A stretch of 56,541 bases of DNA from a virus: positions 1 through 56,541 of the IMG/VR virus record IMGVR_UViG_3300010354_000110, one strand, 5' to 3'. Shown piece after piece: positions 24,288 through 51,645 of this stretch; within the stretch, counting starts at the first letter, position 1, and the number at the start of each line of letters is the position of its first letter. The notes below the pieces were generated by a model. The model was given only the letters and a program-made list of their open reading frames with translations, was not told where the DNA came from and searched no databases. A program made the position numbers and the translations under genes.

Positions 24288-25994
24288 ATGTGCCAAAAAT
24301 GCATCACCCTCCCTGTCCCTGTTGAATACCACGAAGAAATCAGGGAATATCAGTTTTCGGACCTGCCAGAAATAACCGATGACGGCATGGAAGAAATCAG
24401 CAGCCATCTTGCTCGCTGGTGTGGTCCAATATCGACCACACCGCCTCCCACTGATCTAACTTTGGATAGGGTATTCGGAGATTTAATCGCGAACAGCAAT
24501 ATTCGGTTTTGGGTTGAAAACGGATATATACAGTATCCCCCCGCTGAACCTGATTATTACACACAGGCAATGGGGGGCAATTGGACGTTTGACGGACTGT
24601 ATGGGGATACCGCCGACAAGCGTAGGGAAAACATCAAAGCAAGAGCGAAAATAGTAGTAAGAAAGGCCGCCGACTTGCACGCATGGCAGAATCCCCGCTT
24701 TGATACCGCCACCCTCAATTGGGACGCTATCGGTACGGATATCAAAAATAAGGCGGGATCGATCGGTAAGCGTGTCTCCAAAGAGGTAAAGCGCGTATCC
24801 GGCAGTTTTCTCCCCGATACCCTGATTGAATCCCTCAACAATCTTGTCGACCAATACCGATCGACAGACAAAAATCCCCGCATCAGTTTCGATCAGGGAT
24901 TCGCTGACGGTAAGGCCAGGGACTACTGCAATTCTGGTTCCTGCTGGTGGGAAGGTTATTCTGCCGGTAGGAAAGCATTCGCCGAAAATGGTGGATATGC
25001 TGCCCGATTGTGGCAGGACGATAAACCTATTTCCAGGATTTTTATCATTCCTCACACTGTTCAAGGGCACGATTGTCACGTCATTTTCAACGCATACGGG
25101 GATTGGAGGCTGAATCAATGGGCCGAAACGCTGGCGAAAATTTGGGGCATGGAGTCGAAGGAAATCAGCCTGAGGAACGTATCGGACAGGATGTATATAA
25201 ACGGGCATGATGGGTATCTACTATCCCCTGTCTCCCTGTCTGTTTCTCGCGTGACTCTGCAGTGTGAATGCGGGCAAGCATGCCGAAACTGCGGAGGAAC
25301 ATGCAATGAAGAAGAACTCCACTGGTCAGAAAACGGGCATGGTCCGTATTGCTGCGATTGCATCCCCTGGTCAAGTTGCGACCGTTGCGGGGGAGAATGC
25401 TGGGAAGGTTCCGACGATATGGTAACCGTTGACGGGAATACATACTGCTGTGAATCTTGTGCCAATCGTTCTGGATACTACCTATGTTACCATTGTGACG
25501 AATGGTATTCTGAGGATGACGTAGGCGAAGATTGTTCTGGGTATCTTTGCTGTGACGATTGTTCCACCGGTGAAACATGCCACCATTGCGAAAATCGTAT
25601 TGCTGGGGGGAGATACGGGGACGATTATGTGACCACACAGGAGGGGAACTGCTTCTGTGACAATTGCCAGTCTGAAGTATCTCAGTGTCCACACTGTGAC
25701 GAATGGCATGAAACAGGGGAAGATACCTGCCCCAATTGCGAGGATATCCCGTTACCGATTGAAGCGGACGTTGACGCCAGCGGAATTGTGTGCCCTACGT
25801 TTATCTCTCCAGATTTCATCTGCCATACTGCCGAACATCCTGGAATCGGTTTCCGGGATTTCTGTGATGGCGCTCCGTTGCAGGTTCGGCCAGTAGAATC
25901 TGCTATCGACGAATGGCACAAACCGAATCACGGACGGATTGTCAATTCACCATTGGCAATTCTTGCAATCGATCTTTGCCTGTCCGGATTCTAA
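24288..25994 (+). CDS. Large zinc-cluster protein, paralogue of 30144
   Basis: 568 aa in three parts: an N-terminal region of unknown fold (1-200), a conserved middle with ARDYCNSGSCWW, RKAFAENGGYAARL and HVIFNAYGDWRLNQWAETLAKIWG (about 205-300), and a C-terminal array of treble-clef or zinc-ribbon CxxC pairs (about 325-485, for example CYHCDEWYSEDD and CPHCDEWHE). The gene at 30144 shares the middle and a shorter zinc array. Such a protein likely binds nucleic acid or scaffolds host proteins; the exact role is unknown. Confidence 0.8.
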   Translation: MCQKCITLPVPVEYHEEIREYQFSDLPEITDDGMEEISSHLARWCGPISTTPPPTDLTLDRVFGDLIANSNIRFWVENGYIQYPPAEPDYYTQAMGGNWTFDGLYGDTADKRRENIKARAKIVVRKAADLHAWQNPRFDTATLNWDAIGTDIKNKAGSIGKRVSKEVKRVSGSFLPDTLIESLNNLVDQYRSTDKNPRISFDQGFADGKARDYCNSGSCWWEGYSAGRKAFAENGGYAARLWQDDKPISRIFIIPHTVQGHDCHVIFNAYGDWRLNQWAETLAKIWGMESKEISLRNVSDRMYINGHDGYLLSPVSLSVSRVTLQCECGQACRNCGGTCNEEELHWSENGHGPYCCDCIPWSSCDRCGGECWEGSDDMVTVDGNTYCCESCANRSGYYLCYHCDEWYSEDDVGEDCSGYLCCDDCSTGETCHHCENRIAGGRYGDDYVTTQEGNCFCDNCQSEVSQCPHCDEWHETGEDTCPNCEDIPLPIEADVDASGIVCPTFISPDFICHTAEHPGIGFRDFCDGAPLQVRPVESAIDEWHKPNHGRIVNSPLAILAIDLCLSGF

Positions 25995-28384: not shown

Positions 28385-28479
28385 CTCTCGAACAACGCCT
28401 AAGTACCAGCCATATCGCGTTGAGCCTGTTCCTTCCCACTCCTAATAAATCTGGTCAGAAAGTTCTACACCAAGGCCAG

Positions 28480-28500
28480 AAAAAAGCGATACTATGGCAG
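28480..28500 (+). promoter_or_regulatory. AAAAAGCGATA element at a start codon
   Basis: AAAAAAGCGATACTATGGCAG closely matches AAAAAGCGATATTAGGGCAG at 26739-26758, and both are followed by TGACAA. Both lie just before gene starts, so a shared control element is possible. Weak evidence. Confidence 0.3.
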
Positions 28501-29567
28501 ACACTGACAACCAACAACAAGGTGACAAGATGACCACGACCACGACGGAACACAGGCTTTCCAGGGACATGCTGGAGCGTCTCATCAAGAGATGTACCAT
28601 GTCGATCGATGATTATGTTGCAGAGTTCACTGCACTCGGAGCGAACATCGCACACACAAAAGACGGTCCGGTAATGCACCTGGATCGGGGTTGTCCAGTC
28701 ATCGGTGTAGCTCACATGGACCATGTGAAGTTCTGGAGCAAGCCGAAGATCGTCAAAGAGAAGAAAGAAATCTGGTGCCCGCAGCTAGATGACCGGCTGG
28801 GTATCTGGGTGCTGCTGGACCTGCTGCCGCACTTTGGAGTGCAGACCGATATCCTGTTGACTGATTCTGAGGAATGTGGTCGCTCTACCGCCAAGGATTT
28901 CAACACTGACAAGAAATTCAACTGGATGTACCAGTTTGATCGTCGGGGCACGGATACCGTGCTTTACGGTTACGACTCAGACGAGAATCGAGCACGATTG
29001 GAGGCACACGATCTGACCACAGGGTGGGGATCATTCAGTGACATCTGTTCGCTTGAGCATCTCGGTTGCAGTGGCTGGAACGTAGGCACAGGCTATTACA
29101 ACGAACACTCAGACAACTGCCATGCCAAGCTACAGGAAACGTACTTTCAGGCCTTGAAGTTCGCTCAGTTCTTCAACGAACACAAGGATACACACATCCC
29201 TGTCCCCGCTCGACCTAAGCGTAGGTCGTATGGCTACGGAAGCTATTACACCGGCTGGGATGACATCTACACCAGCAAATATGACGATGTCCTCAGTCGT
29301 GTTACTGACTCTGTTGCTGAAGCTGAGCGTAACGCTCGGTGGAAGTGTGAAGTATGTCATGACATGAACATGGCTGATTGGTCGTGCTGTCATACCTGCT
29401 GGGAAGCCCGTACAGCCACTATCTACGATGACTGGTGTTGTGCGGCCTGTTACGACCTCAACCACTACGATAACGCACGGTGTCACGGCTGTCACACTTC
29501 CTATGAAGAGTCAGAGGCAATCTGGGATGAGCAGCAGAAGAAGCAGGAAGGGGGCCATGATGACTGA
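28494..29567 (+). CDS. M28/M42-like zinc peptidase with C-terminal zinc ribbons
   Basis: The core shows the co-catalytic metal ligands of the M20/M28/M42 clan: VAHMDHV (His-x-Asp), CPQLDDRLG, DSEECGRSTA and a final NEHSDN. The C-terminal 70 residues carry three CxxC pairs (CEVCHD, CAACYD, CHGCHT) forming zinc ribbons. The start at 28494 is in the region AGCGATACTATGG. Such phage proteins may process peptides or modify host proteins; the substrate is unknown. Confidence 0.75.
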   Translation: MADTDNQQQGDKMTTTTTEHRLSRDMLERLIKRCTMSIDDYVAEFTALGANIAHTKDGPVMHLDRGCPVIGVAHMDHVKFWSKPKIVKEKKEIWCPQLDDRLGIWVLLDLLPHFGVQTDILLTDSEECGRSTAKDFNTDKKFNWMYQFDRRGTDTVLYGYDSDENRARLEAHDLTTGWGSFSDICSLEHLGCSGWNVGTGYYNEHSDNCHAKLQETYFQALKFAQFFNEHKDTHIPVPARPKRRSYGYGSYYTGWDDIYTSKYDDVLSRVTDSVAEAERNARWKCEVCHDMNMADWSCCHTCWEARTATIYDDWCCAACYDLNHYDNARCHGCHTSYEESEAIWDEQQKKQEGGHDD

Positions 29568-30143: not shown

Positions 30144-31550
30144 GTGTCCAGTGTTTTCGATGCAAGCCGCTACCACACCGACAAAAGGCCCTACAAGGTT
30201 ACCGGTGGTACCATCTCTTCAGCAGGTTTACGGCTTGTTGAGGACTATCTGAATTTCATGAATGATTGCACGATCGATCTACGCCAAACGGTTAAGTCCT
30301 ATGGTGTATGGATCGGAATGCACAAAGCAGATATTGATGCTGCACAGTCCACAACGGCAATCACAAATATTGTTGATCGCGTTCGAGGCAGTTCGCGGTT
30401 CTATTCTGGGTTGTGGTTAATGCCCGCTAGCGGGCATTGTTTGGGCCAATACAAAGAGAATGCTAAGGCTTATCTCAATAAGCTGGTGTCATTTTTCGCT
30501 GATGTGCTGGAATTCCGCTCTACTGTGAAAGGCATGCCCTATCTGCAAAGCATCGAGCAGTATATCGGGTCTGACTGGCTGGTCACTGGGAAAGGCGACT
30601 ATGTTGGAACATTCCCGAAGCGGGTTGCTAAGTGGCTGTTCAAACGACACGGAGTGAAGCTCAGTGCTTCACATCTCCAGACTATCGGTAACTTGGTTTC
30701 TGACCACGTATCCAAAGACTCTGCGGATATCTACTTGGCGTTCGACCAGGAGTATACGGAAGGCTCTGAGGCCAGGGACTACTGCCATCACGACTCCTGC
30801 TGGTGGGGAGAAGGTCGCAAAGGTCTGCGGGAAGGTTTCGTGAAAGAGGGTGGCTGGGCTATTCGGCAGTTTGATGGGTATACACCCACCAGCCGCTGCT
30901 GGATCGTCTGGGATAAGGAGCATAGTTGCTATGTCTTGTTCAATGCCTACGGAAAAACGGACTTGGCTAACTTCTCACGCAATCTCTCGACGGCTTGGGG
31001 ACTGTCGTACTCACAGGCAAGCCTGTATCCGGACAGGGACGAGTACTTCATCAATAGCGATAAGTGCTACGTGATTGCTGACCCTGTAACCGCAGAGAAA
31101 TTGGCAGGCACAGAACTCTATGTGAGTTGGCACAAGCCTATCAAGCCTCTGATTCAATGTCATTGCTGTTGCGAGCATTTTCCAGAAGATGAGGCAGACA
31201 CCGCTCGATCTGCTGACGGTATTGTTCAGGTATGTCCTGACTGCCTACCGTCGCACACACATACCTGCAATCGCTGCTACAACAGATTTGTTGATGATGC
31301 GATGTCCAGCACCCGTCAGGGGTATTGCATTGCGTGCTCTGATTATGTCAACCCTTGCCGCTGCTGCAACAGTCAGCTTACTGAGCAGACCTATTGCGAA
31401 TCTTGTGTGCGGGTGTATAATCTGATAGACGTGTATGAGATCGACTGGGAATCCATGACCTATCGATTCATTCCTGCACAGATTCCTCCGCATGTGCTGA
31501 ACTCTGGTGGTTCAGTAAGTACAGCACCACAAACCACAGTGGTAGGGTGA
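30144..31550 (+). CDS. Zinc-cluster protein, paralogue of 24288
   Basis: 468 aa from a GTG start after GGAGAGTCATC. The conserved middle EARDYCHHDSCWWGEG...REGFVKEGGWAIRQ...YVLFNAYGKTDLANFSRNLSTAWG aligns with the 24288 protein in the same order. The C-terminal zinc array is shorter (about residues 340-425). No heptamer occurs in this gene, the longest heptamer-free stretch of the window (29.7-32.3 kb). Confidence 0.8.
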   Translation: MSSVFDASRYHTDKRPYKVTGGTISSAGLRLVEDYLNFMNDCTIDLRQTVKSYGVWIGMHKADIDAAQSTTAITNIVDRVRGSSRFYSGLWLMPASGHCLGQYKENAKAYLNKLVSFFADVLEFRSTVKGMPYLQSIEQYIGSDWLVTGKGDYVGTFPKRVAKWLFKRHGVKLSASHLQTIGNLVSDHVSKDSADIYLAFDQEYTEGSEARDYCHHDSCWWGEGRKGLREGFVKEGGWAIRQFDGYTPTSRCWIVWDKEHSCYVLFNAYGKTDLANFSRNLSTAWGLSYSQASLYPDRDEYFINSDKCYVIADPVTAEKLAGTELYVSWHKPIKPLIQCHCCCEHFPEDEADTARSADGIVQVCPDCLPSHTHTCNRCYNRFVDDAMSSTRQGYCIACSDYVNPCRCCNSQLTEQTYCESCVRVYNLIDVYEIDWESMTYRFIPAQIPPHVLNSGGSVSTAPQTTVVG

Positions 31551-33913: not shown

Positions 33914-33988
33914 TTCCCTGTAGCTCAATCGGTTAGAGCAGCGAACTCATAATTCGTTGACAGAGGTTCGCGAATCCTCTCGGGGAAA
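33914..33988 (+). tRNA. tRNA with CAT anticodon (Met or Ile2), 9-nt T loop
   Basis: Acceptor TTCCCTG/CGGGGAA (one G-U), D arm GCTC-AATCGGTTA-GAGC, anticodon arm GCGAA-CTCATAA-TTCGT with anticodon CAT at 33948-33950, discriminator A, no encoded CCA. The T arm AGAGG/CCTCT has a loop of nine bases, TTCGCGAAT, where seven (TTCGAAT) are usual: an extra CG. CTCATAA occurs in elongator Met and Ile2 (lysidine) tRNAs; I cannot tell which. Confidence 0.88.
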
Positions 33989-34017: not shown

Positions 34018-34087
34018 GGCTTGGTCCGGTAGGGTCTGGCGTGGCAAGGTTTGGTGAGGCTGGCTAAGGTCTGGCCGGGTAAGGGGT
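34018..34087 (+). repeat. GGYNN pentamer array 1
   Basis: About 14 units of five bases, each starting GG and nearly always with a pyrimidine third base; one unit is irregular (34062). Begins 30 nt after the tRNA and ends before the gene at 34110. The regular GG spacing could form two-tetrad G-quadruplexes or a repeated protein site. Confidence 0.85.
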
Positions 34088-34109
34088 CTAACGACCATTC
34101 ACAGGAGAG

Positions 34110-34766
34110 ATGACAATGCGAAAATTCGACTTCGTTCTCACAGGCTTCATGCCTCTGCTCATGCACGCCGATGATATCGATGGTGCAGATGAATTGGAGG
34201 CATGGCGGAAGAATCCAAGAAACAAGAACATCAGTAAGGCTGGTGATGATCGCTCACCAGCATGGACATGGCAGACCTACCTATACCACCACAAGGGGTG
34301 TGTGGTCATGCCCAGCGAAAACATCATGGCAGCCCTGCGAACAGCCGGTGCCCAGCTGATTCTCAAGAAGCAGAAGACCTTCAAGGAAGTGTCTCAAAGC
34401 GGTCTGCTGATTGAGGGTGAGTGCTGCAATTTCTACAACGCCGGAAAGGCTGTCAGCTACGACCAGATTCAAGCCTTCCGAGATGAGCCTTGGCAGACCC
34501 ACATCCAGAAGGTTGAGTCGATGGGCTTCACGTTGTTCAAGAAGCGTGCTCGGGTGGGGACATCAAAGCACATCCGGGTGCGGCCTAAGTTCGATTCGTG
34601 GTCAGTCACCGGTACGATCATGGTGTTGAAGGAAGAAATCACACAGCCAATTCTGGAGCAGTTGTTCCAGTTGGCCGGTCGTGCTGGTCTGTGCGATTGG
34701 CGACCTGGTTGTAAGACACCAGGACCATACGGACAATTTGAGGCATCGCTGACCGAAGTCAAATAG
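34110..34766 (+). CDS. Hypothetical protein flanked by GGYNN arrays
   Basis: About 218 aa (alternative ATG at 34116, better spaced from AGGAG). GFMPLLMHADD, the central VVMPSENIMAALRTAGAQL and the C-terminal LAGRAGLCDWRPGCKTPGPYGQF recall a phage family with a (T)PLLM N-terminus. The pattern slightly resembles Cas7/RAMP-type folds, but I cannot verify that. It is the only gene between two matching pentamer arrays, suggesting a linked function. Confidence 0.75.
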   Translation: MTMRKFDFVLTGFMPLLMHADDIDGADELEAWRKNPRNKNISKAGDDRSPAWTWQTYLYHHKGCVVMPSENIMAALRTAGAQLILKKQKTFKEVSQSGLLIEGECCNFYNAGKAVSYDQIQAFRDEPWQTHIQKVESMGFTLFKKRARVGTSKHIRVRPKFDSWSVTGTIMVLKEEITQPILEQLFQLAGRAGLCDWRPGCKTPGPYGQFEASLTEVK

Positions 34767-34772
34767 TGTTGC

Positions 34773-34837
34773 GGTAAGGTCAGGCTTGGCTTGGCACGGC
34801 GAGGCGCGGTGCGGCGAGGTTTGGTCCGGCAAGGGAG
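34773..34837 (+). repeat. GGYNN pentamer array 2
   Basis: Thirteen uninterrupted five-base units from GGTAA at 34773 to GGGAG at 34833; the third base is T or C in the first twelve. Shares GGTTTGGT and GGCAAGG stretches with array 1. Starts 6 nt after the gene stop and ends before the start of the next. Confidence 0.9.
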
Positions 34838-34866
34838 CGTAAGCTCATTTCACACAAGGAGACAGC

Positions 34867-35355
34867 ATGTTCAAACACGATCCAGAGATTGCTGCCAAGG
34901 TAGAAAGCCTCTACCAAATGGCAAGAGGAATGCAGAGAGGGGATACCCTCCTGTGGTCACAGATCGAATCACATCTCCAGATGACTCGCAATGAGCCACG
35001 GATGCGGTACATTGTTGCAAAGTGGCGGAAACGCCTGCTGACACAGGACAAGATTGAAACATGGAAAGAGCCTAATGTTGGAATCAGGCTCTTGCACGAT
35101 GGTGAGTGTATCAGTGTTGTTGCTGTCAAACGCAACAAGTTCGCTTCACGACATCATACCAAGATTCTTAAGGCAATGGGTGTTGCCCGCAATGAGCAAC
35201 TCAGCGACAATGAGCGGTTGATGAAGATTGCCATTACTGACCACAGCAGGGAGGCAAGGTCTTCTGCCCGTCGTGCTGCCAAGGCCGGGAATGTTTCTTC
35301 TGACCGTCAGAAACTGCTTGCTATCATCCAACAGGACCGGCCATGTTCACAGTAA
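34867..35355 (+). CDS. Hypothetical basic protein, 162 aa
   Basis: AAGGAGACAGC precedes ATG. N-terminal helices followed by a basic middle (KRNKFASRHHTKILKAMG) and a basic C-terminus, suggesting nucleic-acid binding. No family recognised. Lies downstream of array 2. Confidence 0.7.
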   Translation: MFKHDPEIAAKVESLYQMARGMQRGDTLLWSQIESHLQMTRNEPRMRYIVAKWRKRLLTQDKIETWKEPNVGIRLLHDGECISVVAVKRNKFASRHHTKILKAMGVARNEQLSDNERLMKIAITDHSREARSSARRAAKAGNVSSDRQKLLAIIQQDRPCSQ

Positions 35356-51569: not shown

Positions 51570-51645
51570 TGGTGGAGGCCAGATTTGAACTGGCGATCTT
51601 CAGCTAATGAGGCTGACGGGGACGACCAGACTCCCCTACTCCACT
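51570..51645 (-). tRNA. tRNA with CAT anticodon (Met or Ile2)
   Basis: Acceptor AGTGGAG/CTCCACC (six of seven), D stem GGGGA/TCCCC, anticodon arm TCAGC-CTCATTA-GCTGA with anticodon CAT, T arm GCCAG-TTCAAAT-CTGGC, discriminator A. Canonical and likely functional. Preceded by its own promoter. Confidence 0.9.

Follow-up and report, generated by a model that had tools for sequence, protein, structure and literature searches.

The window under study was a stretch of 56,541 nucleotides, positions 1 to 56,541 of IMG/VR virus record IMGVR_UViG_3300010354_000110, from an uncultivated tailed phage. It harbored a serine recombinase gene and a tRNA-Met gene immediately followed by two arrays of five-base units around a 218-aa gene; the gene order, entirely on the + strand, was tRNA-Met, array 1, 218-aa gene, array 2, and 162-aa gene, with later genes downstream. 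The features, with names reflecting the interpretation developed below, were as follows.

33914..33988, + strand: tRNA-Met (CAT), complete (ARAGORN; Rfam RF00005, 61.6 bits)
34018..34082, + strand: array 1, putative vrRNA1 guide tract, 13 in-phase units (12 GGYNN plus degenerate GCTAA; pattern scan)
34083..34096, + strand: putative vrRNA1 3' tail, GG plus hairpin GGTC-TAAC-GACC (fold; covariation across clade tails)
34110..34766, + strand: predicted vipr gene, 218-aa RAMP (Cas7-like) protein, PHROG phrog_4652 (homology and predicted structure)
34773..34832, + strand: array 2, putative vrRNA2 guide tract, 12 GGYNN units (pattern scan)
34833..34846, + strand: putative vrRNA2 3' tail, GG plus hairpin GAGC-GTAA-GCTC (fold; covariation across clade tails)
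34867..35355, + strand: vap1-like accessory gene, 162 aa, putative DNA-binding product (profile match to SUSP1 Vap1; structure model)

The original prediction placed two GGYNN arrays on either side of the gene at 34110, just beyond the tRNA and recombinase region, and this arrangement was confirmed: the tRNA-Met lay 29 nt upstream of vrRNA1, and a start codon was located about 30 nt beyond the end of each array. A six-unit pattern allowing at most two mismatches matched the window 19 times, always within the two arrays, while shuffles gave an expectation of 0.07, and no further array of at least five units was detected elsewhere in the window by pattern scan. The predicted counts of about 14 and 13 units had to be lowered to 13 and 12 in-phase units ending at 34082 and 34832, and the proposed perfect phase of array 2 held, while the apparent slip in array 1 came down to one degenerate unit in an otherwise in-phase tract. 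Array 1 read GGCTT GGTCC GGTAG GGTCT GGCGT GGCAA GGTTT GGTGA GGCTG GCTAA GGTCT GGCCG GGTAA and then GGGG, and array 2 ran through 12 GGYNN units, all perfect, into GGGAG; the regular third-base pyrimidine was accordingly borne out, with GGY in 12/13 and 12/12 units, respectively. The resulting NN codes were (i) TT CC AG CT GT AA TT GA TG AA CT CG AA in vrRNA1 and (ii) AA CA TT TT AC GA GC GC GA TT CC AA in vrRNA2. Two further observations were made in the phage record: a second tRNA-Met at 51570-51645 (- strand) had no adjoining array, and a 468-aa cysteine-rich ORF at 30144-31550 had no Pfam or PHROGs family match. No cultured-phage relatives were found for the window portal protein or the 568-aa protein encoded at 24288.

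The sequence comparison was extended to the clade of the window locus. Across 58 clade arrays, GGY was conserved, and, the last unit apart, NN entropy reached 3.3-3.9 bits out of a possible 4. The 4-bp tail stem was kept in 26 of the 29 clade tails across 15 different 5' arms, while permutation of the tail arms gave a mean of 6.2 and a maximum of 14 tails with such a stem; the stem thus covaried across relatives, and both window arrays were followed by such a hairpin. Promoter-like and terminator-like sites beside either vrRNA (34018-34109 and 34773-34866) were in no excess over chance, and thus the vrRNAs probably lie within a longer transcript from which they would need to be excised.

The 34110 protein had no match in a Pfam scan, and its AlphaFold (AF2) model had a mean pLDDT of 95.3. 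In a Foldseek search against PDB, this model matched best to subunits of the Cas7/Csm3 type, taken from type VII and type III-A complexes, with E near 2e-6 and TM-scores of about 0.5, and the best 50 PDB matches listed were all Cas7/Csm3-type RAMP complexes or subunits. The family profile (A1) had a single PDB match, 36pp 'SUSP1 Vipr protein' (E 4.8e-45), which the 34110 protein alone matched at E 4.1e-7; a profile built without SUSP1 still matched SUSP1 Vipr (E 2.5e-44), and the 34110 protein and SUSP1 Vipr shared 25% identity. The G-rich loop residues were conserved, and phrog_4652, a PHROG of unknown function, matched 56/56 aligned family members. Judged from these profile matches and the predicted fold, the 34110 product is Vipr, a RAMP protein related to Cas7. 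In most clade loci, the 34867 gene was conserved in second position, and its ORF in the window, like that of vipr, was intact. A profile of its clade homologues matched SUSP1 Vap1 (37 bits), and the model of its product (pLDDT 92) comprised a winged helix then long helices, with weak winged-helix matches in Foldseek; a Vap1-like winged-helix helper, putatively DNA-binding, is thereby suggested.

The association of arrays with the flanked gene was evaluated from both directions. A nine-unit exact GGY/NN pattern scanned over IMG/VR retrieved at least 120 stretches, and 91/120 listed pattern-fetched viral contigs encoded a Vipr homologue, usually adjoining the arrays (the 91 being 104 homologue-bearing loci minus the window and minus 12 protein-fetched loci). 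The iterated profile used here was seeded by the window protein only and trained partly on the pattern-fetched loci themselves; over 20 of these loci had already been recovered at E < 1e-3 in the first pass, for which the window protein was the only query. Conversely, all 20 loci fetched by protein alone (12 viral and 8 genome) carried arrays near the gene, and homologues with unrelated, nonrepetitive flanks, which the original prediction had named as evidence that the arrays were incidental, were therefore absent from this set. In eight control loci fetched for unrelated reasons, no in-phase run scored higher than 3, and in the SUSP1 locus (L141), serving as positive control, the gene at 28474-29061 was the profile match (2.5e-44) and arrays lay on both sides of the gene pair. 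The array-gene link, as originally proposed for this one gene, is general and extends over dozens of viral contigs. Tandem vrRNA-like arrays with short constant spacers and an adjoining Vipr homologue were also observed in L104 3331-5340 (about ten) and L107 4600-5060 (- strand; seven).

No established phage element of this form was known to the original prediction, but the main text of PMC13142463 (bioRxiv 2026.04.26.720920, April-June 2026) describes exactly such a form, namely VIPR (Viral Interference Programmable Repeat), first reported there in 2026 and known mechanistically from this one preprint. As given in that text, VIPR consists of the RAMP protein Vipr, vrRNAs of 9-16 YNNGG repeats plus a structured tail, and vap helper genes with a role in DNA interaction; DNA is recognised via NN pairs with one base skipped between them (xNN) and no PAM, and guides are reported to target lysogeny regulators. 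The window contained a RAMP-fold Vipr, arrays within 9-16 GGY/NN units with hypervariable NN, a structured 3' tail, and a vap gene. Vipr homology, the RAMP fold, the vap1 homologue, and the tailed GGYNN arrays together identify the locus, very probably, as an intact-looking VIPR system in an uncultivated tailed phage. Its subtype is probably type II-like, an assignment supported by the profile match of the 34867 product to Vap1.

Compared to the type II VIPR of Escherichia phage SUSP1 (PDB 36pp) as covered in the main text of PMC13142463, the window locus shared a Vipr homologue, GGY/NN arrays within 9-16 units, a hairpin-containing 3' tail, a vap1-like second gene, and carriage by a phage, but three differences were found: (i) in the window, vipr had one vrRNA ahead of it and another separating it from vap1, while SUSP1 had one before and three after both genes; (ii) the window tail, as folded here, was a minimal 4-bp hairpin, the SUSP1 tail including a pseudoknot; and (iii) a real tRNA preceded vrRNA1 in the window, unlike in SUSP1. 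The RAMP effectors of class 1 CRISPR-Cas (Cas7/Csm3, type III-A, type VII) had the RAMP fold, the G-rich loop, and RNA-guided logic in common with the locus; however, they employ a contiguous spacer guide, whereas the guide in the window was interleaved with the repeat every 5 nt. The CRISPR repeats and cas genes of class 1 systems were likewise not recognised near the locus: no CRISPR-like repeat array was present among the tandem repeats of the window, and no Cas protein among the family matches of those window proteins scanned.

Under the VIPR reading, each GGYNN array with its hairpin tail would constitute one vrRNA guide, Vipr would oligomerise along the vrRNA repeats, and the NN dinucleotides would pair with DNA, one base being skipped between pairs, in a PAM-free manner; the bound Vipr-vrRNA would then keep a gene of a competing phage or prophage from being transcribed, with the 34867 Vap1-like protein acting as helper. 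For this phage, we infer vrRNA expression, RNA binding, DNA binding, target identity, and tRNA-linked vrRNA1 maturation. The multi-subunit protein track of the original prediction survives in part, as a RAMP protein expected to oligomerise on repeat RNA, but the arrays would act as guides rather than as a passive track.

The other structure originally suggested, two-tetrad G-quadruplexes, would have the arrays regulate the directly downstream gene as DNA elements or mRNA leaders, and the regular GG steps with 3-nt loops and the short distance from array end to start codon agree with it. Such a fold needs no pyrimidine, strict 5-nt phase, or hairpin tail, all of which are conserved features here, and it accounts neither for the obligatory co-occurrence with a RAMP gene nor for arrays of relatives that were located downstream of genes or hundreds of bases away; we regard it as highly improbable. 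TRAP binds GAGNN repeats, and RAMP proteins coat RNA. A ring or filament protein might in a TRAP-like manner bind the leader RNA and thereby control translation of vipr and vap, as the 5-nt period, the 12-13 units, and the position of the arrays in 5' leaders would allow. This, too, has very little probability, given that many relatives' arrays lay outside leaders, in series of 5-11, that NN was hypervariable, and that no TRAP-family protein was recognised; autoregulation could moreover arise secondarily when the RNP assembles.

The remaining alternative is a VIPR-like remnant, degenerate or domesticated, which has lost DNA targeting in this phage; the degenerate unit of array 1 and the lack of a target found for either window guide could be cited for it. 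Both ORFs, the G-rich loop residues, and the tails were nevertheless preserved, and the absent target is uninformative on this point; we consider a remnant unlikely.

Targets were searched for with the window guides and with guides of relatives. The array 1 guide had no match in IMG/VR in two 9-unit scans, units 1-9 of the array 2 guide had none there, and neither guide had a target in the window itself. The array 2 guide otherwise gave matches in two families plus one 9/12-unit tape-measure match in IMG/VR, about the number expected by chance. As candidates, the matches in L142-L148 were rejected as chance, since they represented two families only and adjoining units were unmatched; the tape-measure match (L157 8152-8187, array 2 units 4-12, skip rule, wobble phase) was likewise rejected as not distinguishable from the chance expectation of the scan. 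Among the 401 arrays of the fetched loci (1.3 Mb in all), an excess of skip-1 matches was seen, but its sources were low-complexity coding repeats in L032 and loci that the window's own pattern had retrieved; it was discarded as circular. A guide of L149 had no match in 301 genomes of its host family.

The Desulfovibrio sp. An276 locus (L152), a clade member, had a Vipr 45% identical to that of the window. When 288 genomes of its family were scanned with one of its guides, one base being skipped between pairs, a single match appeared, with three mismatches over units 1-11; a reversed control pattern also gave one, and the match count by itself was no higher than chance. Units 12 and 13, which lay outside the query, matched the target too, and at the three mismatches the target had the bases of a sibling guide from that array (L152:3166). 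At skip 1, 24/30 bases of the full guide matched, while other skips reached at most 18/30 in the same 3-kb locus. The matched gene encoded a 72-aa helix-turn-helix protein (L188 1375-1593; HTH_17, E 2.4e-5) beside a tyrosine integrase, in agreement with the lysogeny-regulator targeting described in the main text of PMC13142463, and the skipped bases fell at codon third (wobble) positions. The two neighbouring vrRNAs at L152 3084-3235 were variants, both matching this prophage gene under the 1-nt skip, a pattern that would suit guides directed against alleles of a single target.

How guides could be released from a longer transcript was suggested by other contigs. In Gordonia phage Trine (MH271318.1), gene 41 was a Vipr homologue, and the arrays alternated with three mini-tRNA copies (L158 3065-3339). 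Arrays interleaved with minimal tRNA-like elements were also seen in L034 6882-7220 (- strand) and L159-L187. In these mini-elements, an acceptor-like stem of 4-7 bp was stacked on a T-stem of 6-7 bp with a TTCGANT loop, and a GAYGGT linker was present. When arrays preceded at 12-30 nt by a T-arm were sought, 30 stretches were retrieved, and most had a Vipr gene in the vicinity. In 32/40 elements, the T-stem carried a stacked stem of 4 bp or more (permuted mean 7.8, maximum 17), and pair-count covariation scored 0.63 versus 0.17 when shuffled. Arrays directly followed complete tRNA-Arg genes in phage tRNA clusters at L172 3064-3340, L171 1502-1630, L178 9993-10104, and L168 (- strand). Rfam gave no match on 17 multi-array loci. 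With a covariance model, the mini-tRNA was detected in a few array-selected loci (L034, L004, and L005) but not in the clade of the window; a general rule placing tRNAs near arrays was accordingly rejected in favour of a minority architecture, and the role of the window tRNA-Met is for these reasons only a suggestion.

The VIPR arrays interspersed with hammerhead ribozymes in PMC13142463 and the arrays of these contigs are both split by a potentially transcript-cutting element, the separators being hammerheads in the former, as its main text has it, and tRNA-like elements (acceptor-like stem plus T-arm) or true tRNAs in the latter. That text does not mention tRNA, and on this basis tRNA-like elements or tRNAs beside vrRNA arrays seem previously unreported. 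The vrRNAs would be freed by host RNase P and RNase Z acting at the flanking tRNAs or tRNA-like elements, and tRNA-Met 33914 may be a 5' processing element for vrRNA1. We lean toward the view that tRNA maturation serves some VIPR phages in excising guides from a polycistronic transcript, in which case the window tRNA-Met would serve vrRNA1.

VIPR, newly described and possibly pre-CRISPR, is a mode of DNA recognition in which the guide RNA carries a noncontiguous code, and phages are thought to use it to switch off genes of rival phages. The system itself is already known, and the present locus adds to it a member in an uncultivated phage for which no close cultured relative was found; phrog_4652, otherwise a PHROG without function, represents the Vipr family, and a prophage helix-turn-helix gene from beyond the published VIPR clades conforms to the one-base-skip rule. 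If confirmed, the tRNA-like elements separating guides would parallel engineered tRNA-gRNA arrays in nature and offer a simple explanation of vrRNA excision.
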